From positions 43,123 through 71,707 of the IMG/VR virus record IMGVR_UViG_3300030419_007499: DNA of 28,585 bases. One strand, written 5' to 3'. The position numbers and the translations under genes are program-made. Below, piece by piece: positions 844 through 26,574 of this stretch. The stretch's first letter is position 1. Every line of letters starts with the position of its first letter. The notes beneath the pieces are model-generated. The model saw nothing but the letters and a program-made list of their open reading frames with translations. It did no database searches and was not told where the DNA came from. Source of the stretch: a virus.

Positions 844-3285
844 ATGAATATCAACGTAAAAAAACGCAACAATAGACTAGTCCCCTTCGAAGTAGAAAAA
901 ATTAACAGATCAGCAGAGAGAGCCTGCGAAAATTTAGAAAACGTTTCAGCCAGTGAAATCGTCTTAGACGCAAAAATAAAGCTTTACGACAAGGTAAAGA
1001 CGTCAGAAATTGACAAATCTTTGATTTCTTCAGCTAGTTCAAAGATAGAAAAAGAGCCAAATTATAATTACGTAGCCGCAAGACTACTTCTTAATACAAT
1101 TTACAAAGAAGTTTTTGGAGAGGGTGTAGATAGTCAAGCGTTTGAACTACAATATCATAAGTCTTTTATTACAAATCTCAAAAAGCTTATAAAAGAAGGA
1201 ATTGTTGATCCAAAGTTAGCCGAGTTTGATCTTAAGAAAATTTCGGAGTCAATAGACACACAAAGAGATTTAAGTTGGAAATATTTAGGCATCCAAACTA
1301 TTTATGATAGATATTTACTTCACATAGATGGACGCAGAATGGAAAGTCCTCAAGGCTTTTTTATGAGAGTCGCTATGGGATTAGCGTTAGCTGAAAAAGA
1401 AAATAGAGAAGATTGGGCAATTAAGTTTTACAATACCCTTTCTTCTTTTGACTTAATGTCTAGCACTCCAACTTTATTCAATAGCGGTACAGTGCATCCG
1501 CAACTTTCTTCATGCTACCTAAATACATTTGAAGATTCTATTGATGGAATTTTTGATGGTCTCTGGCAAGAAGCTCGTAAAAGCAAGTTTGCTGGCGGCT
1601 TAGGCATGGATGTCACCCCATACAGGGCAAGAGGATCTTATATTAAGGGCACAAACGGCGAAAATCAAGGTCCAGTATATTTTTGGAAACTCTATGGAGA
1701 TATGCTTGTTGCAGTCAACCAAGGGGGTAAAAGAAAAGGTGCGGGATGCGCATATTTAGAAACTTGGCATGCAGACATAGAAGACTTCCTAGAGCTTCGC
1801 AAAAATGTGGGCGACGAAAGGATGAGATCTCACGATATGAATACTGCTAATTGGATTCCTGATCTTTTTCTTAAGCAAGTCGAACAAGATAAAGATTGGT
1901 ATTTGTTTAGCCCAAATGAAACTCCAGAACTTCATGAAATCTATGGAGAAGATTTTGAATCTAAATATTGGGAATATGTCGAAAAAGGCAAAAACGGAGA
2001 GCTTAGAGTTTTTAAAGAAGTACGAGCAAAAGAGCTTTGGAAAAAAATGCTAAAAGCTTTATTTGAAACTGGCCATCCATGGATGACATTTAAAGATCCA
2101 TCAAATATTAGATACTCAAACCAACACGTGGGCACTGTCCACTCGAGTAATTTGTGCACCGAAATACTTTTACATACAAAACCCACAAAATACAGCGATG
2201 GCAATTTACGAGGAGTTGAAGAACACGGAGAAACTGCGGTTTGCAATCTTGCGTCGATTAATTTAAAAAATCATCTCAAAAAAAGAACTCTAGATTTCGA
2301 CAAAATACAAAAAACAGCGGAAATAGGAATGAGAATGTTGGACAATGTTGTAGACATTAATTTTTATCCAACAAAAGAATCGGAAAACGCGAACGTACGC
2401 CATCGTCCAGTTGGATTAGGCAGTATGGGTTGGCATGACGTATTTTATGCTCTTGATGTAGACTACTCAAGCAATGAAGCTGTTGAATGGTCAGATAAAA
2501 TTTATGAGCACATAAGCTATTCAGCTATTTTAGCCTCTAGCAAATTAGCAAAGGAAAGAGGTAAATACTCCACGTATCAAGGTTCTTTGTGGGACCAAGG
2601 AGTGTTACCTATTGATACATATAAAAATTTATTTAAAACAAGAGGCCAAAGACCTAGAACCACAACAAGCTTAGATTGGGATGCTGTTAGAAAGCATATC
2701 TCAGAGCACGGCATGAGGAATAGCAACACAATGGCCATCGCGCCAACAGCAACAATTTCCTACATTTGCGGTTGTTCACAATCTATTGAGCCTAATTTTG
2801 GAGTTATTTTTGTGTACTCTACTCTTTCTGGAGAGTTTACTCAAATTAATGAATATTTTGTAGAAGATATTAAAAAAGCTGGATTATGGAGTCAAGAATT
2901 TATAGATGCGATCAAATCAGTTGATGGGGACTTATCCAAACTAGAGAATACTATCCCAGACAAAATCAAGGAAAAGTATAAAACCGCATTCCATCAAGAT
3001 CAGTTAAAGCTAATAGATTGTGCCGCAGCAAGACAAAAATGGATTGACCAAGGGCAAAGTCTAAATTTGTATAATAACAAAACCAGCTTAAAGTTTTTAA
3101 ATGATATGTACATGCATGCATGGAAATCTGGACTTAAAACAACTTATTACTTAAGAAGCACCGCTGCAAGTGTAGTAGAGAAATCAACAGTTTCTAACCA
3201 AAAAAAAGAATACACGGAAGAGGAAGTTATGGCCTGTTCTATTGAGGCAATGAAAAATGGCGAAGAGTGCGAAGCCTGTCAGTAG
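844..3285 (+). CDS. nrdA: Ribonucleoside-diphosphate reductase alpha subunit, class I
   Basis: The 813-residue catalytic subunit reduces ribonucleotides to deoxyribonucleotides for phage DNA synthesis and works with NrdB (3766). One ATP-cone regulatory domain fills about residues 1-95. The catalytic set is complete: C224 and C467 are the redox pair and N436-L-C438-T-E440 is the active-site loop with the thiyl cysteine. The Tyr pair of the radical pathway is Y768-Y769 in TTYYLRS. The C-terminal tail ends ECEACQ, providing the swinging CxxC that is re-reduced by thioredoxin or glutaredoxin. Motifs are intact over normal length, so it should be active. The dUTPase sits between it and nrdB. Only the partner subunit has an unusual residue. 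Confidence 0.96.
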   Translation: MNINVKKRNNRLVPFEVEKINRSAERACENLENVSASEIVLDAKIKLYDKVKTSEIDKSLISSASSKIEKEPNYNYVAARLLLNTIYKEVFGEGVDSQAFELQYHKSFITNLKKLIKEGIVDPKLAEFDLKKISESIDTQRDLSWKYLGIQTIYDRYLLHIDGRRMESPQGFFMRVAMGLALAEKENREDWAIKFYNTLSSFDLMSSTPTLFNSGTVHPQLSSCYLNTFEDSIDGIFDGLWQEARKSKFAGGLGMDVTPYRARGSYIKGTNGENQGPVYFWKLYGDMLVAVNQGGKRKGAGCAYLETWHADIEDFLELRKNVGDERMRSHDMNTANWIPDLFLKQVEQDKDWYLFSPNETPELHEIYGEDFESKYWEYVEKGKNGELRVFKEVRAKELWKKMLKALFETGHPWMTFKDPSNIRYSNQHVGTVHSSNLCTEILLHTKPTKYSDGNLRGVEEHGETAVCNLASINLKNHLKKRTLDFDKIQKTAEIGMRMLDNVVDINFYPTKESENANVRHRPVGLGSMGWHDVFYALDVDYSSNEAVEWSDKIYEHISYSAILASSKLAKERGKYSTYQGSLWDQGVLPIDTYKNLFKTRGQRPRTTTSLDWDAVRKHISEHGMRNSNTMAIAPTATISYICGCSQSIEPNFGVIFVYSTLSGEFTQINEYFVEDIKKAGLWSQEFIDAIKSVDGDLSKLENTIPDKIKEKYKTAFHQDQLKLIDCAAARQKWIDQGQSLNLYNNKTSLKFLNDMYMHAWKSGLKTTYYLRSTAASVVEKSTVSNQKKEYTEEEVMACSIEAMKNGEECEACQ

Positions 3286-3300: not shown

Positions 3301-3311
3301 TTATCTTACCT

Positions 3312-3734
3312 ATGAACATAGAAATTAAAAAGCTACATGACGATGCTTATCTTCCGTCGAGAAATAGCTCTGGCGATGCTGGGTACGATTTGTACGCAAT
3401 TGGCCACGATGTTGTTAGAGCTGGAGAAAGAAAACTTGTAAACACAGGGGTTAGCATTGCCATTCCCCATGGGTATTATGGCAGAATTGCCCCTAGATCA
3501 GGTTTGGCCCTTAATCATGGGATAGATATTTTAGCTGGAGTTGTTGATTCTGGATACAGAGGGGAAATTTGCGCGCTTTTAGTCAACCTAGGGGACAAAA
3601 ACTTTGCTTACAGAAAAGGAGATAGAATAGCCCAACTTATTATCGAAAAATGCCACGACGTTAGTTGGAAGCAAGTTCAAGAACTTAATGGTACGCATAG
3701 AGGCGACGATGGATTTGGAAGTTCTGGGGATTGA
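3312..3734 (+). CDS. dut: Deoxyuridine 5'-triphosphate nucleotidohydrolase (dUTPase)
   Basis: This is a trimeric-type dUTPase of 140 residues. It hydrolyses dUTP to dUMP, keeping uracil out of DNA and feeding thymidylate synthesis by ThyX (6312). All five family motifs are visible in order: SSGDAGYDLYA, APRSGLALNHG, the uracil-binding GIDILAGVVDSGYRGE, KGDRIAQLII and the C-terminal P-loop-like RGDDGFGSSG. The start at 3312 gives MNIEIKKLHDDAYLP, the normal family beginning; a longer frame from 3267 would run through the end of nrdA and the promoter motif. Its stop codon lies inside the -35 element of the nrdB promoter. Confidence 0.95.
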   Translation: MNIEIKKLHDDAYLPSRNSSGDAGYDLYAIGHDVVRAGERKLVNTGVSIAIPHGYYGRIAPRSGLALNHGIDILAGVVDSGYRGEICALLVNLGDKNFAYRKGDRIAQLIIEKCHDVSWKQVQELNGTHRGDDGFGSSGD

Positions 3735-3765: not shown

Positions 3766-4770
3766 ATGAAGAGCGGAAATCTCCTAGAAAAAGAAACTGC
3801 AGGCGTTAACCAAATCTTGCCCCACAAACACAAATGGGCTTGGGAATTGTACGAACAGGCAATAAAAAACAATTGGGTTCCAACTGAAGTCCCAATGGCT
3901 AAAGATGTCCAAAATTGGAAAAACTCCAAATCAGATTTAAGCGAAGACGAAAGATTAGTAATCAAAAGATGTTTAGGTTTTTTTGCTGGCAGCGAATCTC
4001 TAGTCGCCAACAATTTAATGACTCTTGCCAAGTTTATTACTGATCCAGAATGCAGGCAGTATATGGCTCGACAAATGTATGAGGAGTGTTTACATAATCA
4101 TACTATTGTTTATATATGCGACAGTTTAAGTTTAGATATTAAAGAGGTTTACGAAGCTTATGCGAGCATTCCTTCCATCAAGGAAAAAGACGAGTTTTTA
4201 ATGGAGGTTACAAGCGACCTCAATAGGCAAGAATTTTCAACACAAACGCTAGAAGGCAAAAGAGAGCTTATAAAAGCTGCGTTTACCTACTGGATTGTTT
4301 GCGAAGGAACTTTCTTTTTTAGTGGTTTTGCTATGCTTTTAGCATTATCAGATAAAATCCCAGGAATTGCCGAACAAATTCAATACACCCTCAGAGATGA
4401 AAGTTTGCACATTAAATTCGGTACAAATCTTCTCAATAAACTTAAAGAGCAATATCCATCAACTTGGACCAAATCTTTTGAAAAAGAACTAACAAAGATA
4501 GTGCAAAAAGCGGTAGAGTTAGAAATCAAATATGCCGAAGATGTTTTGCCTAGAGGGATTTTAGGCTTAAATTCTTCAATGTTTGTTAGTTATATGCAGT
4601 TTATAGCCAACAGAAGACTTGAAGCGCTAGATATGGAGTTTAGATACGAAAGCGATTCTAACCCGTTCCCTTGGTTAAGTGAGGTGATTGATCTTAAAAA
4701 GCAAAAGAATTTCTTTGAAACTAGAGTGATCGACTACCAAGATCATTCTGCACTAGAAGATGATTTTTAA
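3766..4770 (+). CDS. nrdB: Ribonucleotide reductase beta subunit, class Ic-like, radical Tyr replaced by Ile
   Basis: The 334-residue metallocofactor subunit supplies the oxidising equivalent to NrdA. The dimetal ligands are all present: E77 (GSESL), E107 and H110 (YEECLHNHT), E180 (CEGTFFF), E212 and H215 (LRDESLH). A Glu rather than Asp as first ligand and the overall sequence (KWAWELY, NNWVPTEVPM, GFF.GSESLV.NN, LPRGILGL, KNFFETRV) resemble class Ic proteins such as that of Chlamydia trachomatis, which uses a Mn/Fe centre and has Phe where others carry the radical Tyr. Here that position, four residues after H110, is Ile114 (codon 4105-4107). A tyrosyl radical at this site is therefore impossible. 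The radical-free Mn/Fe mechanism is inferred, not shown. Confidence 0.95.
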   Translation: MKSGNLLEKETAGVNQILPHKHKWAWELYEQAIKNNWVPTEVPMAKDVQNWKNSKSDLSEDERLVIKRCLGFFAGSESLVANNLMTLAKFITDPECRQYMARQMYEECLHNHTIVYICDSLSLDIKEVYEAYASIPSIKEKDEFLMEVTSDLNRQEFSTQTLEGKRELIKAAFTYWIVCEGTFFFSGFAMLLALSDKIPGIAEQIQYTLRDESLHIKFGTNLLNKLKEQYPSTWTKSFEKELTKIVQKAVELEIKYAEDVLPRGILGLNSSMFVSYMQFIANRRLEALDMEFRYESDSNPFPWLSEVIDLKKQKNFFETRVIDYQDHSALEDDF

Positions 4771-6311: not shown

Positions 6312-6947
6312 ATGAACGTTAGTTTAGTATCAGTTACCCAGCCTTTTCTTTCAGAACTCAAAAGCCCAGAAGACATAATTGCGTATTGCGCTAGAGTTTC
6401 GAACCCTTCAAACCAATTAAACACAGAAACTGCCCCGAAACTATTAAAATTTTTAGTAAAACATAAACATTGGTCACCATTTGAGATGGTGGATATGACC
6501 ATGGAAATTAAAACAAGCCGAGCTATCGCGGCTCAAGTTTTAAGACACCGTAGCTTTTCTTTTCAAGAATTTAGTCAAAGATATTCTCAGGCGCAAGTTT
6601 TAGAAAAACTAGAATTGCGAAAACAGGCAGAGAAAAACAGGCAAAGCAGTGTTGATAAATACGAAAATCCAGTTTTACAAACGAAGGTCAGAGAGCACAT
6701 AGCCAAAGGAGTCAGCTTATACAATAATTTAATTGAAGACGGAGTAGCAAAAGAGTCTGCAAGAATGATTCTGCCTCTCACAACAGAAACAACAATGTAC
6801 ATGAAGGGCAGTATAAGAAGTTGGGCTCATTATATAGATTTAAGAACGGAACAAAATACACAAAAAGAACATAGGGAAATAGCACAAGCTTGCAAGCAAA
6901 TTTTTCAAGAAAACTTCCCAGCAGTAAGTGAAGCATTATGGACTTAA
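6312..6947 (+). CDS. thyX: Flavin-dependent thymidylate synthase
   Basis: A 211-residue ThyX that converts dUMP to dTMP with methylene-tetrahydrofolate, NADPH and FAD. The diagnostic RHRx7S motif is RHRSFSFQEFS (R78 to S88), followed by QRYS. The usual Asn-Glu of the motif reads Gln-Glu here. ESARMILPLTTETTMYMKGSIRSWAHYIDLR toward the C-terminus is also typical of the family. It completes a dTTP route with dUTPase (3312) and dCMP deaminase (22302), both of which yield dUMP. The stop overlaps the next gene by 10 bases, so the two are probably co-transcribed from the promoter at 6274. Confidence 0.95.
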   Translation: MNVSLVSVTQPFLSELKSPEDIIAYCARVSNPSNQLNTETAPKLLKFLVKHKHWSPFEMVDMTMEIKTSRAIAAQVLRHRSFSFQEFSQRYSQAQVLEKLELRKQAEKNRQSSVDKYENPVLQTKVREHIAKGVSLYNNLIEDGVAKESARMILPLTTETTMYMKGSIRSWAHYIDLRTEQNTQKEHREIAQACKQIFQENFPAVSEALWT

Positions 6948-7744: not shown

Positions 7745-8800
7745 ATGAATAATCAACCCAAAAAAACACTAATAACAGGAATACTCGGCCAAGATGGAGC
7801 AAACATGGCTGAGTACTTATTGTCTCTCGACGAACAAATAGAAGTTTACGGAATGATGCGTAGATCATCGAACGTAAACGAAACTAACATACTATCGTTT
7901 AAAGATAACCCAAGATTTTCTTTGGTATATGGAGATTTAACAGATGAAATATCTGTAGATAGGCTCGTCAAAGATATACAGCCAGATTATTTTATTAATT
8001 TTGGCGCAAATTCATTTGTTGGTTGTAGCTGGGACATGCCCTTACAAGTCTTCGATGTAAACACGCTTGGAGTGATTAGAGCCCTCGAGGCAATTAGAAA
8101 ATTTAAACCTGATTGTAGATTTTATAGTGCAGGAAGCTCTGAAGAGCTTGGAGACGTTGATTATTCACCACAAGACATAAACCACCCAATCAAGCCAAGA
8201 AGTCCATACGGAGCATCTAAAGCCGCAGCAAGGCACATTGTAAAAGTATACAGAGAATCTTATAGCTTATATGCGATACATAGCATACTATTCAACCACG
8301 AAGGGCTACGTCGTGGAGAGGAGTTTGTTACGCGCAAAATTACAAAAGCTGTAGCAAAAATAGCCACCGCAATAGCGAATAACGAAGATTTTGAGCCTAT
8401 AAAATTAGGAAATGTAAATTCACAAAGAGATTGGTCGGACTCCGAAGACTTTGTAAAAGCTATCTGGCTAATGCTTAATCAAGAACAGCCAAAAGAATAT
8501 GTTTTATCAAGCAATGAAACGCATAGCATTAGAGAATTTGTCGAAAAGGCATTTGGATATGCTTACATATCTGGAGATTGGCACGGCGAAGGCCTTGATG
8601 AAAAGTTCTTACATGAAGGCAACAACGTTCCACTAGTTGAAATTAGTAAAGACTTTTATCGCCCAGCTGAAGTGGAACTACTTTATGGAGACTCTACTCC
8701 CGCAAGGAGAGAACTCAAGTGGGCACCAGAAGTTTCTTTTGACAATTTAGTGCAGCGTATGGTAGAATATGACTTGGAATTAGAGCATGCCAAAAGGTAG
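7745..8800 (+). CDS. gmd: GDP-mannose 4,6-dehydratase-like enzyme
   Basis: A 351-residue extended short-chain dehydrogenase that would convert GDP-mannose to GDP-4-keto-6-deoxymannose, the precursor of GDP-fucose, rhamnose or perosamine. The NADP loop TGILGQDGANMAEYLL closely matches the Gmd form TGxxGQDGxxL, and YGMMRRSSN follows as in Gmd. The catalytic centre has YSAGSSEELG and SPYGASKAAA. SILFNHEGLRRGEEFVTRKIT is the family's substrate loop, close to the usual FNHESPRRG. RDWSDSEDFVKAIWLML and FYRPAEVELLYGD are also diagnostic. Length is normal. It likely supplies deoxysugars to modify virion or host glycans. The stop overlaps the next gene by 14 bases. Confidence 0.9.
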   Translation: MNNQPKKTLITGILGQDGANMAEYLLSLDEQIEVYGMMRRSSNVNETNILSFKDNPRFSLVYGDLTDEISVDRLVKDIQPDYFINFGANSFVGCSWDMPLQVFDVNTLGVIRALEAIRKFKPDCRFYSAGSSEELGDVDYSPQDINHPIKPRSPYGASKAAARHIVKVYRESYSLYAIHSILFNHEGLRRGEEFVTRKITKAVAKIATAIANNEDFEPIKLGNVNSQRDWSDSEDFVKAIWLMLNQEQPKEYVLSSNETHSIREFVEKAFGYAYISGDWHGEGLDEKFLHEGNNVPLVEISKDFYRPAEVELLYGDSTPARRELKWAPEVSFDNLVQRMVEYDLELEHAKR

Positions 8801-15250: not shown

Positions 15251-16015
15251 ATGTTGCCTTTATTCAAAAGCCACTTTTCTATTGGTAAATCAATATTAAC
15301 TTTAAATTTACCGTCACAATGTACCGACGGAGGACCAGACAGCATATTTAAAATAGCTAACGACAATAATCTCGACGAACTCATTTTAGTAGAAGACTCC
15401 TTTAATGGCTTTTTACAAGCAAAGAAAAATGCAGAGGAATTAGAGATTCAGCTAATATTTGGCATAAGATTTGTAATTGCTGAAGATATCGACGAAAAAC
15501 TAAGCAAAGATAACAACAACCAACACAAAATTATTATCTTTGCAAAAAACGACGAAGGGATAAAGTCTTTATATAAAATATACAACAGGGCCTTTGCGAG
15601 AGGATTTGGTCATTTAGATTACAAATCTCTTAAAGAGCTTTGGAACAAAAATCTAAAGTTGGCAGTTCCATTTTATGATTCTTTTTTATTTGCAAATTTA
15701 ATTTCTTTTTCTAACTGCGTTCCAGACTTTACTTTTTGTAAACCAACTTTTTTTATTGAGAGCAATAACTTACCTTTTGACTTTTTAGTCGAACCAATAG
15801 TAAAGAAGTACTGCAAAGAAAATAAGTTTTCAATACAAAAAGTAAAGACAATTTATTATAACAAAAAAAGAGACGCAAAAGCCTTTCAAACATACAAATG
15901 CTTATGCTCTAGAGGTTTTGGTAGGCAAAAAACTTTAGAGGAACCAAACTTAGACCACTTTGGTAGTGATGAGTTTTGTTTCGAAAGCTGGCAAAAAGAA
16001 AATGAAAATAGATAA
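15251..16015 (+). CDS. Stand-alone PHP domain of DNA polymerase III alpha, degenerate
   Basis: A 254-residue protein that matches the first quarter of bacterial DnaE and nothing else. Recognisable in order are LFKSHFSIGKSILTLN (the LHxHSxYSLLDG motif), FNGFLQAKKNAEELEIQLIFGIRF (the usual G..EFYKAAKKAGIKPIIGCE), IIIFAKNDEGIKSLYKIYNRAF (LLAKNxxGYxNLxKL) and a C-terminal LEEPNLDHFGSDEFCFES that equals the DnaE region before the palm. Most PHP metal ligands are lost: the first His is Lys, the TDHG block is EDSF and the GCE Glu is Arg. So it is probably a structural partner that rebuilds the polymerase with the core at 17046, rather than a nuclease. Overlaps the cupin by 14 bases. Confidence 0.8.
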   Translation: MLPLFKSHFSIGKSILTLNLPSQCTDGGPDSIFKIANDNNLDELILVEDSFNGFLQAKKNAEELEIQLIFGIRFVIAEDIDEKLSKDNNNQHKIIIFAKNDEGIKSLYKIYNRAFARGFGHLDYKSLKELWNKNLKLAVPFYDSFLFANLISFSNCVPDFTFCKPTFFIESNNLPFDFLVEPIVKKYCKENKFSIQKVKTIYYNKKRDAKAFQTYKCLCSRGFGRQKTLEEPNLDHFGSDEFCFESWQKENENR

Positions 16016-16382
16016 ACCAAAATACGTAGAAAAAGATTGGGGATCAGAAACTTGGTTCGCTAATAATCTAGAACATAATTACTGCGGTAAAATTCTAGAA
16101 ATTAAAAAGGGGCATTCGACGTCAATGCATTTTCACATTAATAAGCACGAAGTTTTTTATATCCTTGAAGGAATACTAGAAGTAATCTGGATAGATACAG
16201 AATCTGCCGAAGAACACATTATATATGTTCCACAAGGCATGTCAATGGAAATGCCTCAAGGTGTACCACATAGCTTAATTGCAAGCGAAACAGATGTAAA
16301 ACTCATAGAAGCAAGCACATTCCACCGTGATGAAGATAGTTACCGCTTGTGGAAAACAAGCAAGCCAATAACCAAAGCATGA
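16002..16382 (+). CDS. Cupin protein, mannose-6-phosphate isomerase-like
   Basis: A 126-residue single-domain cupin. The metal motif is HFHINKHEVFYILEG (H-x-H, then E), with the second part MPQGVPHSLIA supplying the last His. The beginning KPKYVEKDWGSETWF and YCGKILEIKKGHSTSMH resemble the C-terminal cupin of type II phosphomannose isomerase and stand-alone phage cupins near sugar genes. It may bind or isomerise a hexose phosphate, feeding GDP-mannose to the gmd enzyme at 7745, but it is placed between two polymerase pieces. The start at 16002 gives the family beginning; the upstream extension from 15960 is in PHP coding sequence. Its stop overlaps the exonuclease start as ATGA. Confidence 0.82.
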   Translation: MKIDKPKYVEKDWGSETWFANNLEHNYCGKILEIKKGHSTSMHFHINKHEVFYILEGILEVIWIDTESAEEHIIYVPQGMSMEMPQGVPHSLIASETDVKLIEASTFHRDEDSYRLWKTSKPITKA

Positions 16383-17020
16383 AAGACGAATTATTAAGAT
16401 ACAACAACAAGCAAAAATATTTAATTTTTGATTTTGAAACTTGCAATTTAAACCTAGTCAACCCAAGTAATCGCCCATGGCAGTTATCATTTATCATTGC
16501 AACAAAAGATAAAGTTTTGGAAAAGCATGACCACTTCTTAAAATGGAAAGACTTAAAGGTTTCCGAGGGAGCTAAAGCTGCAACTAGATTTGATTATACA
16601 AAATATAAGATTAAGTCAGAAGAGCCATTACCAATACTTAGAAAATTTGATAAAGTGCTTTACGATAAAAAATATAAAATTGTTGGGCACAACTTATTAG
16701 GCTTTGACATTTATGTGCATAATGCTTTAAGAAAGACATTAGGATTAAAAAGTGATTTTTCGTATTTACACAGACTAATAGATACAAACTGTCTTGCCAA
16801 AGCATACAGAGAAGATATTAAATTCGATGTAAAGGATTCTTTTTTAAGTTGGCAGTTTAGGTTGGATGGATATATAAAAAGAGGCTTAAAGACTAATTTA
16901 GCAGCAATGCTTAAGGAATTTGATATAAACTTCGATAAAGACAAACTACATGATTCAATGTACGATATTCAAATGAATTTAGAAGTGTTTAAAAAGCTTC
17001 TTTGGAAGATTGACATTTGA
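16379..17020 (+). CDS. DEDDh 3'-5' exonuclease, DnaQ-like (probable proofreading subunit)
   Basis: A 213-residue exonuclease of the DnaQ superfamily. Exo I is YLIFDFETCNLN (Asp and Glu), Exo II is IVGHNLLGFDIYV, and Exo III is KLHDSMYDIQMNLEVF with His and Asp spaced as in DEDDh enzymes. It lies immediately before the polymerase core gene, so it probably removes misincorporated bases for that polymerase, as epsilon does for alpha in bacteria. The start at 16379 forms an ATGA overlap with the cupin; an ATG at 16349 also exists in frame but lies inside cupin coding sequence. There is no obvious clamp-binding or alpha-binding tail of the epsilon type. Confidence 0.87.
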   Translation: MKDELLRYNNKQKYLIFDFETCNLNLVNPSNRPWQLSFIIATKDKVLEKHDHFLKWKDLKVSEGAKAATRFDYTKYKIKSEEPLPILRKFDKVLYDKKYKIVGHNLLGFDIYVHNALRKTLGLKSDFSYLHRLIDTNCLAKAYREDIKFDVKDSFLSWQFRLDGYIKRGLKTNLAAMLKEFDINFDKDKLHDSMYDIQMNLEVFKKLLWKIDI

Positions 17021-17038
17021 GTTTTTTTATGTTACTAT
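17010..17038 (+). promoter_or_regulatory. Leaderless promoter of the polymerase core gene
   Basis: TTGACA (17010-17015), 17-base spacer, TACTAT (17033-17038), 7 bases to the ATG at 17046. It begins inside the exonuclease 3' end and shows that the longer frame from 17010 is not the real start. Confidence 0.8.
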
Positions 17039-17045
17039 TATTTTT

Positions 17046-19631
17046 ATGAGCTTCACTAAAGACTTTTCTACATATCAAGATTGCGCACCACCTGGGGTGA
17101 GGTTGCCAAAAATCGAAATTGAGAGTAGGTATTATAACGAGTTAAATCTCTCAGAAGATACTTCTAATTATGATTTTTTAAGAGCTCTTTGCCTAGATGG
17201 AGTAAAGAAAAAAGGGATTGACAAAAAGAAAAATTCAAAAGAATATTACGCCAGAGTTCGAATGGAGCTCAAAATTTTAAAAGATTTAGGATTTATTGAT
17301 TACATACTTTTAAATTGGGACATATTACATTTTTGTCAAGAACAAGATATTCCCACTGGACCAGGCCGTGGTAGTGCAGCGGGTTCTCTTGTGTTATTTT
17401 TAATTGGTGTTACACAAGTAGACCCAATTAAATACGATCTTTTCTTTGAGAGATTTGTGAGTAAATCTAGAGCCAGAAAAATAGAAAAAGACGGAGTTAC
17501 TTTCCTAGATGGATCACTACTTGCTGATGTAGACAATGATATCGCATACGAAAGACGCGCAGAAGTAATTGACTATATAAAAAGAAAACATCCAAATCGA
17601 ACATGTAAAATTTTAACCCTTAATACGTTAAGTGGCAAATTATGTATAAAAGAATGCGGCAAGATCGTTGGATCTTACTCAGAACAAGAAGTTAATGAGG
17701 TAAGCGATACTATACCCAAAAAATTTGGAAAAGTTGCACCATTAACTCAAGCTTATAATGAAAGTGAACAATTCAAAGAATGGGTAGACCAGAACCAAGA
17801 GATTTTTGAAGTCGCTAAAAAGTTAGAGGGTTTAAATAAAAACACTGGGGTTCACCCATCTGGTATTGCAATTTCATATTATCCATTAGACGAGATTTGC
17901 CCATTACAGCAAACTAATGATGGTGAGTTGGTAAGTGGATATGATATGAATTGGGTTGCAGAGCTCATGGTCAAGTTCGATATTTTAGGTCTCAGAACAT
18001 TGAGTGTCATTTATGATGTTTGTAAACAATTAAACTTCGACATGAACGAAGTAAACCTAGAAGACAAAAATATATATAAGAATTTAAGAAATGAATTTAG
18101 GCATCCACAAGGCTTGTTCCAGATAGAAGCTTATACAAACTTTAATGTTTGTAAAAAGATTGCCCCTAAAAACTTGGAGCAGCTTAGTGCTGTAGTCGCA
18201 ATAGCTAGGCCAGGTGCATTGGAATTTACAGACAGCTATGTTGAATACGCTAAGTCTGGCGATTTTCAAAGCGTGCATCCAGTGTTTGATGAAATCTTGG
18301 ATTATACTGGAGGGATTCCATTATATCAAGAACAGTTAATGAAGATGGCTGTAAAGGTTGGTTTTACACTCGACGAAGCGGAACAGTTAAGAAGGATTGT
18401 CGGTAAAAAGAAAGTCGACCAAATGCCCGCATGGAAAGAAAAGATCTTTGAAAAAGTTGAACAAAACAGATTAACCAATGCTTGGACAGGCCATCGTGGA
18501 GATGAAGTCGCCGATGTTTTATGGCAAGTTGCAGAAGATAGCGCAAATTATTCATTTAACAAATCCCATTCAATAGCATATGCAACTCTAGCAGCATGGA
18601 CAACTTATTTAAAATTTAAACACCCCAAAGAGTTTTTCTTAAGTCTACTTAAGATGACCCAGTTTGAGCCTGCTCCGCATGAGGAGATAGCTAAAATAAC
18701 CACAGAGCTTCCTTATTTTGGAATTGAGTTACTCCCGCCAGATTTAGGCAGGTCGGATATGGACTTTAAGATAGAAGGCGACAACATTAGATATGGGCTT
18801 AATAGCATAAAAGGAGTTAGCCAGAAGACTTTACAAGCGTTAAAAGATTTTAGAGAATCAGAAACGCCAACAAAGTACGATATTTTTATAAGCGCAAAAC
18901 AAGCGGGAATCAATATTGGAGTTTTATCTGCTTTAATACAAGCTGGAGCGCTAAATGCATATAAAACTAAACGCTCACGACTCGTGTTAGAAGCACAATC
19001 ATTTAATTTACTCACCGATAGAGAAAAGAGAAATTTTGTACAATTGGGAGAAAAATTTAAATATGACGTGTTAAAGACGATAGAGGCAGCGACAAAAGGA
19101 GAATTACTTGCAGATGACAACAGGAGACTAATGTCTGACAGCAGGTTTGTAACTTTTAAAAAGAAGTATAGCAAGTATAAAGAAATTTGGGAAAAGAACA
19201 GGCTATATGAAGACTTTGCCAATTGGTTTTTTGAGAAAAAACTTTTAGGCTACTCTTATAGCGTGAAATTAAAAACTGTTTTCTCAAAAGAAAAGCCTCT
19301 CATGAATACCTATGAAGTTCAAGCGTCTGAAAATAATGAAAGAGTATACATGGTAGGAGTAGTAGAGGATTGTTTCAAGAGACAAAGTAGAAATGGCAAT
19401 AAATATGCCAAGCTAGAAGTCTCCGACGAATTAGGTTTTATAAACGGTATGTTGCTAGATACAGCTAGACAAACAAAGCTAACAGAATATCTTAATCAGA
19501 ATGATAACAAATTACCAAAAAAAGAAAGCGTTGTATATCTTGAAGGACGCAAAGGAGATGACATAATCTTTTTAGATAAAGTTGTTATATACGATGACAA
19601 AATCTACATGAAATTAAGTGATTTAAAATAG
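17046..19631 (+). CDS. dnaE: DNA polymerase III alpha subunit core, lacking the PHP domain
   Basis: An 861-residue C-family polymerase that starts about where the palm begins in DnaE. Seen in order: YARVRMELKILKDLGFIDYIL, the GPGRGSAAGS motif (105-114), the catalytic ADVDND (D161, D163), the third catalytic Asp in KFDILGLRTL (D312), IPLYQEQLMKMA, GHRGDEVADVLWQVAEDSANYSF with NKSHSIAYATLAAWTTYLK, then the helix-hairpin-helix region YGLNSIKGVSQKTLQAL. An OB-fold-like part near the end has VYMVGVVEDCF. Family members carry PHP at the N-terminus; here it is a separate gene at 15251. All three catalytic Asp are kept, so it should be the phage replicase. Own promoter at 17010; Clp gene follows after 14 bases. 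Confidence 0.94.
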   Translation: MSFTKDFSTYQDCAPPGVRLPKIEIESRYYNELNLSEDTSNYDFLRALCLDGVKKKGIDKKKNSKEYYARVRMELKILKDLGFIDYILLNWDILHFCQEQDIPTGPGRGSAAGSLVLFLIGVTQVDPIKYDLFFERFVSKSRARKIEKDGVTFLDGSLLADVDNDIAYERRAEVIDYIKRKHPNRTCKILTLNTLSGKLCIKECGKIVGSYSEQEVNEVSDTIPKKFGKVAPLTQAYNESEQFKEWVDQNQEIFEVAKKLEGLNKNTGVHPSGIAISYYPLDEICPLQQTNDGELVSGYDMNWVAELMVKFDILGLRTLSVIYDVCKQLNFDMNEVNLEDKNIYKNLRNEFRHPQGLFQIEAYTNFNVCKKIAPKNLEQLSAVVAIARPGALEFTDSYVEYAKSGDFQSVHPVFDEILDYTGGIPLYQEQLMKMAVKVGFTLDEAEQLRRIVGKKKVDQMPAWKEKIFEKVEQNRLTNAWTGHRGDEVADVLWQVAEDSANYSFNKSHSIAYATLAAWTTYLKFKHPKEFFLSLLKMTQFEPAPHEEIAKITTELPYFGIELLPPDLGRSDMDFKIEGDNIRYGLNSIKGVSQKTLQALKDFRESETPTKYDIFISAKQAGINIGVLSALIQAGALNAYKTKRSRLVLEAQSFNLLTDREKRNFVQLGEKFKYDVLKTIEAATKGELLADDNRRLMSDSRFVTFKKKYSKYKEIWEKNRLYEDFANWFFEKKLLGYSYSVKLKTVFSKEKPLMNTYEVQASENNERVYMVGVVEDCFKRQSRNGNKYAKLEVSDELGFINGMLLDTARQTKLTEYLNQNDNKLPKKESVVYLEGRKGDDIIFLDKVVIYDDKIYMKLSDLK

Positions 19632-19645: not shown

Positions 19646-22036
19646 ATGGATAAAAATCAAATCAATTTTACGCCAAAAGCGCAAAAAATAGTGAAAAAAG
19701 CCAAAGCCGAAGCTTTTTCACTCAATACCAAGTCTGCTGATTTGGAACATCTTTTTCTTGCGTTTCTTGATTTAGAAAATTCTATAATCAACGATATCCT
19801 CGAAGACGTCGAACTTAACAAAGATGAATTAAGACAATTAGTCATTAAAGAATTTAAAAAAGACACAATACAGCTAGAGCCCAACGAAAAGATAACATAT
19901 AGTGTGAACATTAAAAACGCGCTAACTAACGCTAGAAAGCTTGCATTAAAATTAGGGCATTCATATGTAAGTTGTGAACATTTATTTTATAGTTTTTTAA
20001 AAATTGAACAGTGCCCCGCAATTGAATTTTTTGAAACACTAGGCATCGACACCAACGAAGTTCTAAATAAACTTGAAAAATATTTCGACATTGAAGAGTT
20101 GGAGCAAGAAGAAACGGAGCCCCCACAGGCAAATGATAAAGCTCCTATTGCATTATCTTCCTTTGCAGTAAACTGTAACGCTGTCGCTTACGAGCAAGGC
20201 TATGACCCTATGATTGGCAGAGAAAAAGAAGTTGAAGAGCTTGCCGAAATTTTATGCAGAAGAAATAAAAATAATCCAATTTTGCTCGGTGAAGCAGGCG
20301 TAGGAAAGACCGCTTTGGTTGAAGCTCTAGCTCAAAAAATAGTAGCCCGAGAAGCTCCAGAGTTTCTGCTAAGTAAACAAATTTTTTCTTTAGACTTGGG
20401 CTCCTTAATAGCTGGTACGAAATATCGCGGACAGTTCGAAGAAAGACTTAAAAAAATTATCGAAGAACTCTCAACAAATGAAGAGTTTATTATTTTTATC
20501 GACGAGATACATACTTTGATTGGAGCTGGCGGAGCCGAAGGAACTATGGATGCAGCAAATATGCTAAAACCCTTGCTTGCGAGGGGAAAAGTTAGATGCA
20601 TAGGAGCGACAACAATTTCTGAATATAGAAAAACAATCGCAAAAGATGGAGGCCTAGACAGAAGGTTTGAAAAACTACATATATCTGAGCCAACAAAAAC
20701 CCATGCAATAAAAATACTAGAAGGGTTAAAGTCAAAATACCAAGAGTTTCATAACGTTGTTTATAAAGACCATCACTGTGAACTTGCAGTTAATTTATCT
20801 AGTAGGTATATTACTGACAGATATTTGCCAGACAAAGCGTTGGACGTTATTGACCAAGCTGGAGCTAAAACTAAAACAAGATGTTACAAAAGGCCAGAAA
20901 TAGCAAAAAACCTAGAAAAGCTAATGGAAACTTGCGAGACAGAAAGTGAGCTTAAGAAAATGACAAAAAGATATGAGGAGGTAATGATTGAATGGGCCTC
21001 AAAAATTGCGTCAAAGCCGCCAAAAGTGACTGACGATGACATTTATAGAGTGATATGCCAAAAAGCTAAGATACCACTTTCCGAACTAAAACAAGACGAA
21101 GCTAAAGTTTTTCTAAATTTAGAAAAAAATCTAAACAAATTGATTATTGGCCAAAGTGATGCAGTTAAAAAAGTTTCTCTTTCAATTTTAAGAGCTAAAT
21201 CTGGAGTAAGAGACGAAAATAAACCGATTGGAAGCTTTTTATTACTAGGAACTACGGGAGTTGGTAAAACTTTTACCGCAAAAATGTTGGCAAAGTCTGT
21301 ATTTGGAGGTGAAGATAATATGATTCGCGTAGACATGAGTGAATTTGCAGAAAAATCTTCTGTGAGCAGACTCATAGGCGCATCACCAGGCTACGTTGGC
21401 TTTGAGGATGGTGGCTATCTTACAGAAGCGATAAGAAAAAACCCGTATGCGGTAGTTTTATTTGATGAAATTGAAAAAGCTCACCCAGAAGCTTATCAAA
21501 TTTTATTACAAATAATGGACGAAGGCGAACTCAAGGACTCAAATGGAAAAATTGCCAATTTCAAAAACTCCATTATCTTGCTTACAGGTAATATTGGGCA
21601 CAACTCATTTAACTCTCAAAAGACCATGGGTTTTGGCGGTAAAGATGAACAGCCCACATTTGCGGAAAGCAGAATTAACGTAATGGGTGAAGCAAAAAAG
21701 TTTTTTAAACCAGAGTTTGTTAACAGATTAGACGAGATTATTATCTTTAAACCTCTCTCTAAAGAGAATAACAAAAAAATAGCACGCCTAGAGCTAAAAA
21801 AACTATCCGAAAGACTAGCAAAACAAGATATACATATAGAATATACGCCTAAAGTCTTGGATTTTTTAGTGGAAAAGGGCACCAGCGCTAAAAATGGAGC
21901 TAGATTTCTAAAAAGAGCTATTCAAAAAAATGTTGAAGACAAAATATCCACAGCAATTCTTAACAAAAGAAAAGGCCACAACCAAACACTAAAAATAACA
22001 AAAAAGGGTGGACAACTCGTGGTCGCGGAATTATAA
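19646..22036 (+). CDS. ClpC/ClpA-like AAA+ unfoldase
   Basis: A 796-residue class I Clp ATPase. Two N-terminal Clp repeats lie at about residues 6-145. The first AAA+ module has Walker A GEAGVGKT (215-222) and Walker B IIFIDEIHTL. A very short middle domain follows (YEEVMIEWASKI region), so it is not a ClpB disaggregase. The second module has Walker A GTTGVGKT (535-542), Walker B VVLFDEIEKAH and FFKPEFVNRLDEIIIF. Before the latter, TMGFGG sits where ClpC carries its ClpP-docking xGF loop, so it may dock on host ClpP. Expected role: ATP-driven protein unfolding and perhaps targeted degradation of host or phage proteins. No clpP was found in the window. Confidence 0.93.
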   Translation: MDKNQINFTPKAQKIVKKAKAEAFSLNTKSADLEHLFLAFLDLENSIINDILEDVELNKDELRQLVIKEFKKDTIQLEPNEKITYSVNIKNALTNARKLALKLGHSYVSCEHLFYSFLKIEQCPAIEFFETLGIDTNEVLNKLEKYFDIEELEQEETEPPQANDKAPIALSSFAVNCNAVAYEQGYDPMIGREKEVEELAEILCRRNKNNPILLGEAGVGKTALVEALAQKIVAREAPEFLLSKQIFSLDLGSLIAGTKYRGQFEERLKKIIEELSTNEEFIIFIDEIHTLIGAGGAEGTMDAANMLKPLLARGKVRCIGATTISEYRKTIAKDGGLDRRFEKLHISEPTKTHAIKILEGLKSKYQEFHNVVYKDHHCELAVNLSSRYITDRYLPDKALDVIDQAGAKTKTRCYKRPEIAKNLEKLMETCETESELKKMTKRYEEVMIEWASKIASKPPKVTDDDIYRVICQKAKIPLSELKQDEAKVFLNLEKNLNKLIIGQSDAVKKVSLSILRAKSGVRDENKPIGSFLLLGTTGVGKTFTAKMLAKSVFGGEDNMIRVDMSEFAEKSSVSRLIGASPGYVGFEDGGYLTEAIRKNPYAVVLFDEIEKAHPEAYQILLQIMDEGELKDSNGKIANFKNSIILLTGNIGHNSFNSQKTMGFGGKDEQPTFAESRINVMGEAKKFFKPEFVNRLDEIIIFKPLSKENNKKIARLELKKLSERLAKQDIHIEYTPKVLDFLVEKGTSAKNGARFLKRAIQKNVEDKISTAILNKRKGHNQTLKITKKGGQLVVAEL

Positions 22037-25593: not shown

Positions 25594-26574
25594 GTGAAAA
25601 AAGGTTTCTCATTGATAGAGCTGCTTGTTGTAATAGCTATTATTGCCATTCTTGCTGCTTTGCTTTTGCCAGCTTTATCTTCTGCCAAGCAAACAGGCTG
25701 GCAAGCACAATGCATAAACAACCAAAGACAGCTTAATCTTGCTTATGCAGAATTTGCTGCTGATCATGAAGACAGATTTCCTTATGCCTCTGCTTGGAGA
25801 AACGAGCCTACAGGTATGTGGGCATGGGTAGCTGACAGTATGAGTGGAAATGGAGCTTGGGGACAAACTGATAGACCTTTATTTTGGTCGCCGTTGAAAC
25901 CTTATGCTGGCATGGGTATTTTTGGATGCCCAGGCGACAAATCTACAGTAGTGTGGCAAGAGAAAAAAAAGAATACTACTAATTGGGTTGATGTGGTCAA
26001 AAAAAGACCTCGTTCATATAGCGTAAACATTTTTGTTGGCGGGTGGTCTGGCTGGCCATTTGAAGCTGATACGCAATACAAAATATATCATACATATGAT
26101 GATATAAAAGATCCATCTAATATTTTTTCTTTTATTGAAATGCCTCCTGCTTCTATAAATGCTGGTAACTTTAGAGTACCACCGACTTTAAGAGGCAAAG
26201 AGAGTGCATTCTCTATGGATTGGCCAGGGGTTTATCATAATAACGGTTCTGTCGTTTCGTTTGTAGATGCACATGTAGAATTTAGAAGATGGCTAGAAGA
26301 AGATACTAAAGTTATCCCAGAAGCCGTACAGAATCCCACCACAATAAAAGATCTAGTTATTAGTCCAGATAATAGAGATATAAAATGGCTAGGAGATCGA
26401 GCGACAGAACCATATCCAAACACTCATGCTTGGAAAAAAGTAATGAACGGAATATCAAGATACGATAGACCGTGGAACACTAGAGATGTAGATGGAAAGC
26501 GTTATGACTCATGGGGTTGGTACTGGAATGATAGCTGGGGCCATCACCCAACCTGGAAACCATATATTCAATGA
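25594..26574 (+). CDS. Type II secretion-like pseudopilin, H-X9-DG type
   Basis: A 326-residue protein with GTG start. The N-terminus [27 protein letters not shown] is a textbook class III signal, cut before Phe by prepilin peptidase, leaving the hydrophobic assembly helix with Glu5. The following [33 protein letters not shown] and the C-terminal [17 protein letters not shown] match the pseudopilins that are very abundant in Planctomycetota, Verrucomicrobiota and Lentisphaerota; the signature H-X9-DG here reads H-X9-DA. The C-terminus is Trp-rich. As the phage has no pilus machine in the window, it would use the host's. Its stop overlaps the next start (ATGA). The phage promoter motif in front argues against contamination. 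Confidence 0.9.

Follow-up and report, generated by a model that had tools for sequence, protein, structure and literature searches.

Published pairings of the radical-column residue with the first metal ligand distinguish the R2 (beta) proteins of class I ribonucleotide reductases: Tyr/Asp in Ia and Ib, Phe/Glu in Ic, and Tyr/Glu in Id (PMC8463856). In class Ic proteins (R2c), all four carboxylate ligands are Glu, the first included, and Y222 and W51 carry the electron that turns Mn(IV)/Fe(IV) into the active Mn(IV)/Fe(III) center; Y222 is conserved in R2c and not in R2lox, and the choice of metal is not fixed by the identity of the first ligand alone (PMC4118035). R2lox proteins form a cross-link between V72 and Y162 (PMC6060897), whereas R2c proteins are reported to be without this Val-Tyr cross-link (PMC3824934).

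Aliphatic residues at the radical column have also been described. A 2013 paper, citing Hogbom 2010, notes R2c proteins in which the position is Leu, Ile or Val; some apicomplexan R2_e2 proteins are reported to have Ile and Val there as well (PMC3824934). A bioRxiv preprint of February 2026 reported 269 viral class I alpha sequences from GOV 2.0 that cluster outside the RNRdb references, with NrdAz as the closest RNRdb clade. In their beta subunits the radical Tyr is replaced by Ile or Val, in contrast to Phe or Leu in the Ic references. This clade was named subclass Ic-like and kept apart from Ic over its Ile/Val; no member had been characterized, and the cofactor was left open as Mn/Fe, another or none (PMC12918982).

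Here, we analyze an nrdB gene from an IMG/VR virus record that encodes Ile at the radical column, and compare the protein with described R2 proteins through its ligands, relay residues, relatives and predicted fold.

The nrdB gene lies in a nucleotide-metabolism block

The window, the whole stretch of DNA that was analyzed, is 28,585 nucleotides long and covers bases 43,123–71,707 of a 71.7-kb virus record (IMGVR_UViG_3300030419_007499) that may be incomplete. Its nrdB gene (3766–4770, plus strand, as are nrdA, the dUTPase gene, thyX and every nrdB feature given below) is a complete ORF with an ATG start, and its 334-aa product is the radical-generating R2 (beta) subunit of a class Ic-like ribonucleotide reductase. 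NrdB matches Pfam PF00268 in a profile search (2e-74), scores 441.9 bits against NCBIfam NF005550 (cut-off 309), and is the sole R2 found in the whole 71.7-kb record. Upstream, nrdA (844–3285) encodes the catalytic R1 (alpha) subunit with one ATP cone (Pfam ATP-cone, lgN and lgC). NrdA carries the catalytic motifs SSCYLN at 222, NLCTE at 436, AVCNLAS at 465 and TTYYLR at 766 as well as a C-terminal CEAC, and the nrdA adjoining nrdB is predicted to be catalytically complete. Its nearest solved structure is 5im3 (E = 3e-259), which we take to be a NrdAz-type enzyme.

A dUTPase gene (3309–3734; TIGR00576, 1.6e-48) sits between nrdA and nrdB, and thyX, encoding a flavin-dependent thymidylate synthase (6312–6947; TIGR02170, 1.5e-55), follows downstream in the same nucleotide-metabolism block. 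Searches of the 71.7-kb, possibly incomplete record found neither NrdI nor a terminase. On either side of the block are two nucleotide-sugar epimerase/dehydratase-like genes; the one at 17–763 matches NDP-sugar epimerases, and the one at 7745–8800 resembles GDP-mannose dehydratase by eye only. Elsewhere in the window, DNA polymerase III alpha is apparently split among several ORFs (15251–19631), comprising a polymerase-like N-terminal piece (15251–16015), an exonuclease subunit (16349–17020) and a core with NTPase, finger and HHH_6 regions (17010–19631). The virus also encodes a full ClpA/ClpB-like AAA+ protein (19646–22036; Clp_N, two AAA modules and ClpB_D2-small) and a protein (25594–26574) with N-terminal matches to a pilin family and to several unknown PHROGs that begin with a short pilin-like stretch.

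An aliphatic residue occupies the radical column throughout a viral clade

Nucleotides 4081–4119 encode residues E106–C118 of NrdB (EECLHNHTIVYIC). Within this span, the ATT codon at 4105–4107 encodes Ile114 at the radical-tyrosine column (C. trachomatis (Ct) F127; E. coli Y122), four residues past ligand H110 in the arrangement E107-CL-H110-NHT-I114, just as the first-pass annotation had read it; the HTHT-like motif described there is spelled HNHT in NrdB. Aligned to the C. trachomatis R2c structure 1syy (E = 7e-111), which is gap-free in this region, Ile114 falls opposite F127. The F127Y mutant entry 2ani aligns to NrdB identically, and the Phe of 6y2n is likewise aligned with Ile114.

In a first IMG/VR scan, 32 viral contigs with relatives 61–81% identical to NrdB all had Ile or Val at the radical column. 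The same held for 98/98 distinct NrdB sequences of the clade, which diverge to a pairwise identity of 55% and carry Val (75) or Ile (23). On the tree, Ile and Val are exchanged about three times, counted as letter-state minus group-state changes, and never give way to Tyr, Phe or Leu. Ile/Val at this column is a conserved trait of what appears to be a functional protein. A sequencing or assembly error, or a misaligned radical position, has a negligible chance of explaining Ile114 and is refuted by the gap-free alignment of the EExxHxxTxxY motif with solved R2c structures and by the Ile or Val in all 98 clade sequences.

The absence of Tyr from the radical column supports the earlier claim that no canonical tyrosyl radical forms at this position. 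The idea that an Ile at this column is exceptional is not supported, since prior reports record Leu, Ile or Val there (PMC3824934, PMC12918982).

The first ligand is paired with the radical-column residue

To place this substitution among relatives, we compared 251 distinct R2 sequences from viral contigs, species genomes and the genomes of two phyla, those of a Verrucomicrobiales MAG and a Simkaniaceae MAG, with identical cores removed. Without exception, the first ligand and radical column were paired as Asp-Tyr (77), Glu-Val (75), Glu-Phe (58), Glu-Ile (23) or Glu-Leu (18); Tyr thus occurs with Asp only (77/77), and Phe, Leu, Ile and Val with Glu only (174/174). As read from the aligned residues, this agrees with the pairings published for Ia and Ic. 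The search for Ile or Leu in other R2 proteins that the first-pass annotation had suggested was thereby carried through, with Ile/Val in the 98 viral-clade sequences and Leu in 18 of the 251.

The genome scans were ranked on similarity to the query and sampled part of R2 diversity. Because the 251 sequences are interrelated, many coming out of overlapping scans, and the tree holds only one supported independent pair that tests the association of Asp/Tyr versus Glu/non-Tyr, the perfect pairing is a description rather than a statistical proof. Environmental R2 proteins can be sorted simply by sequence on this basis, as Glu with non-Tyr or Asp with Tyr.

NrdB groups with class Ic proteins by phylogeny and predicted fold

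We built a tree of 76 representatives from which the radical and first-ligand columns were excluded. Distant phage R2 outgroups gave pathologically long branches and were left out of this tree; its midpoint root serves for drawing only, and no direction between Tyr and Phe/Ile/Val is read from it. The viral Ile/Val sequences lie on one side of a branch with support of 97/98, beside Phe-type R2c. The Leu-type group, whose genomes belong to the phylum of the Verrucomicrobiales MAG, makes up a separate clade (100/100), and the remainder of the tree consists of Tyr-type and Phe-type sequences (Chlamydiae, Verrucomicrobia and some viral contigs), with the Phe-type 6y2n placed within the Tyr-type group. 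The alignment, one of the checks named in the first-pass annotation, placed no other Tyr at the radical position.

Among 50,697 phage-collection records, none held a relative more than 60% identical to NrdB, and hence no isolate of the Ile/Val clade was found. One viral contig (L198) encodes a Phe-type R2c 74% identical to that of C. trachomatis, and three others (L201, L209 and L211) encode Phe-type R2c with Phe at the Ct Y222 column, so without the usual relay Tyr. A further record named Acinetobacter phage MD-2021a (L166, CAKLQH020000007.1) has nrdAB near hcpC, phzF-like and LysR-family genes and looks like a bacterial chromosome rather than a phage.

An AlphaFold2 model of NrdB from 39 loci reached a mean pLDDT of 83.6 and a pTM of 0.83, with the C-terminal tail from residue 307 at low confidence; a first model from 10 rows was poor (pLDDT 67.7). 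In a Foldseek search of the PDB, the first 14 matches were 6y2n and 13 R2c chains from C. trachomatis, among them Mn/Fe forms and one F127Y. Class Ia and Id structures followed R2c with E-values weaker by roughly at least 8 orders of magnitude, the Id structures falling below all R2c (E about 1e-9 versus 1e-20). The model backs the fold assignment and not the fine geometry because the superposition rmsd is high (8–9 Å). By sequence and by predicted fold, the closest solved structures are Mn/Fe class Ic proteins, and the sequence matches, NF005550 and Foldseek all bear out the earlier placement of NrdB, with its Glu first ligand, closest to class Ic.

These comparisons bear on whether NrdB might use a metal-centered oxidant other than Mn/Fe, either a class Id-like Mn2(III/IV) center or a stable high-valent Fe2 center held by the same ligand set. 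Class Id likewise combines a Glu first ligand with a metal-based oxidant (PMC8463856), and the identity of the first ligand leaves the metal open (PMC4118035), yet class Id retains an activity-essential Tyr at the radical column (PMC8463856) and NrdB groups with R2c and not with Id structures both in sequence and in Foldseek. We regard such a center as unlikely. Class Id itself is disfavored, as it requires the Tyr/Glu pairing and NrdB has Ile114.

Metal ligands and relay residues are conserved across the clade

Alignment to Ct R2c confirmed the earlier observation that all six metal ligands remain. The first, E77 (3994–3996), aligns to Ct E89 and is Glu as in class Ic, in contrast to Asp in Ia/Ib. 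The E107-x-x-H110 motif (4084–4095) corresponds to Ct E120/H123 and E180 (4303–4305) to Ct E193, while D211-E212-x-x-H215 (4396–4410) combines the pathway Asp (Ct D226) with the last two ligands (Ct E227/H230). The relay is likewise present: W37 (3874–3876) is the counterpart of Ct W51 and E. coli W48, Y207 (4384–4386) that of Ct Y222, the R2c-specific activation relay, and Y324 (4735–4737) that of the C-terminal pathway tyrosine Ct Y338. Every ligand together with W37, Y207 and D211 is invariant among the 98 Ile/Val sequences, and Y324 is found in 97 of them, the remaining one being gapped there.

The strict wording of class Ic (Phe/Glu) does not describe NrdB, which has Ile at the column. 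NrdB does possess other class Ic features: a non-oxidizable radical-column residue, carboxylates that are all Glu (E77, E107, E180 and E212) and the W37/Y207/Y324 relay.

The loss of the radical Tyr could in principle mean that this R2 has decayed or serves without catalysis, as a scaffold comparable to yeast Rnr4, or that it is an R2lox-type oxidase, as R2lox also is without the Tyr and uses Mn/Fe. This is very improbable: the six ligands, relay residues and C-terminal Tyr are conserved clade-wide at 55–81% identity, a search of the possibly incomplete record found no second R2, an intact nrdA lies next door, and residue 184 is Phe, in contrast to Ala in R2lox. Y324, F184 and the paired nrdA exclude R2lox.

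Class Ie proteins have lost carboxylate ligands (VPK/QSK) and have NrdI as their activase. With 6/6 ligands intact, no Tyr, and no NrdI in the possibly incomplete record, NrdB is disfavored as a member of this class, which one report describes as retaining Tyr as a DOPA site and working without a metal cofactor (PMC8902622). The first-pass annotation had offered a Mn/Fe class Ic cofactor or one of the newer types; the former is the better supported, and the newer types (Id and Ie) are disfavored, both keeping Tyr.

The residues around the metal site differ from those of Chlamydia

Beyond the ligands, four residues near the metal site mark the clade. Residue 105 (Y105, 4078–4080) is Tyr or Trp clade-wide; relatives of the Tyr type almost always have Phe there, as do most of the Phe type. 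C179 (4300–4302), which adjoins ligand E180, is an invariant Cys in the clade, and other relatives have, with few exceptions, Met or Phe. V80 (4003–4005) and Y175 (4288–4290) occupy the columns of the R2lox cross-linking residues V72 and Y162 and occur in 98/98 and 97/98 clade sequences. The clade-specific Cys179, Tyr/Trp105 and Thr208 show predicted metal surroundings that are unlike those of Chlamydia R2c, which counts against a Chlamydia-type Mn/Fe center.

The oxidizing equivalent might reside on another near-metal side chain such as Y175, or Y175 might form a cross-link with V80, comparable to Y162-V72 of R2lox, and so yield a different second-sphere cofactor. The near-invariance of the two residues and their alignment with the R2lox pair (PMC6060897) speak for this, as do the Tyr-type relatives, which have mostly Ala and Phe at the two columns. 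Against it, Ct R2c shares the pair (V92/Y188) and yet R2c is reported without the cross-link (PMC3824934), and NrdB keeps the C-terminal Tyr and F184, both missing from R2lox. We consider it improbable. Equally improbable, in our estimate, is a non-Chlamydia cofactor in which, the radical pocket having shrunk to Ile/Val, Y175, with V80 and Cys179, would carry the oxidizing equivalent or be oxidatively modified, and which would bring the class I radical cofactors to six kinds.

Proposed cofactor and mechanism

From the sequence comparisons, we infer the activity, metals and electron route of NrdB: it is probably a working class Ic-like R2 with a metal-centered oxidant, most likely Mn(IV)/Fe(III). 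A class Ic mechanism is the simplest because the Glu first ligand, an inert radical-column residue and both relay residues are kept. In such a mechanism, the metal pair bound by E77, E107, H110, E180, E212 and H215 would react with O2, and one electron delivered via Y207 and W37 would yield a stable high-valent metal center, most likely Mn(IV)/Fe(III). This center, and not a tyrosyl radical, would store the oxidizing equivalent, which would then pass by way of W37/D211 and Y324 into NrdA, to its TTYY tyrosine pair and catalytic cysteine. Ile/Val114 would do no more than replace the radical Tyr by a small aliphatic residue that is chemically inert, comparable to Phe in Chlamydia and Leu in the Verrucomicrobiota clade. 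The metal that the virus needs to make DNA precursors would bear on how it competes in metal-poor seawater.

Comparison with known systems

Among characterized proteins, NrdB most resembles C. trachomatis R2c (1syy, 4d8f and 4m1i; Mn(IV)/Fe(III)), with which it shares about 50% identity, the six ligands and the equivalents of W51, Y222, D226, Y338 and F197. In contrast to C. trachomatis R2c, the NrdB clade has Ile/Val for Phe127, Cys179 for Met192, Tyr/Trp105 for Phe118 and Thr208 for Ile223, and the C-terminal tail of NrdB ends in DDF. The Leu-type Verrucomicrobiota R2 clade (L180–L197) also combines a Glu first ligand with an aliphatic radical-column residue, Leu; it is nonetheless a separate clade, about 39% identical to NrdB, with His105 and Phe175. 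R2lox shares with NrdB the Glu first ligand, the absent radical Tyr and the columns of the V80/Y175 pair, and differs in having no C-terminal Tyr, Ala for F184 and no NrdA partner. The Tyr-type class Ia-like R2 proteins of Betaproteobacteria and their relatives (L037, L053 and others) belong to the same family, PRK07209, at 45–50% identity, and every one sampled pairs Tyr at the radical column with Asp as the first ligand.

The marine viral subclass Ic-like clade, which is not known to differ from NrdB in sequence, is alike in having a viral nrdB beside nrdA and Ile/Val at the radical column. We infer that the NrdB clade is the Ic-like clade of the preprint on two features, compared here in place of accessions: the Ile/Val signature and an NrdA that resembles NrdAz. 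Ile/Val R2 proteins have already been described, and NrdB is a further member of a recently described group. What this analysis adds is the clade-wide count of residue pairing, the invariant Cys179 and Tyr/Trp105 and the near-invariant Val80/Tyr175, along with the conservation of the relay, the tree position beside R2c and the neighboring Leu clade in Verrucomicrobiota.
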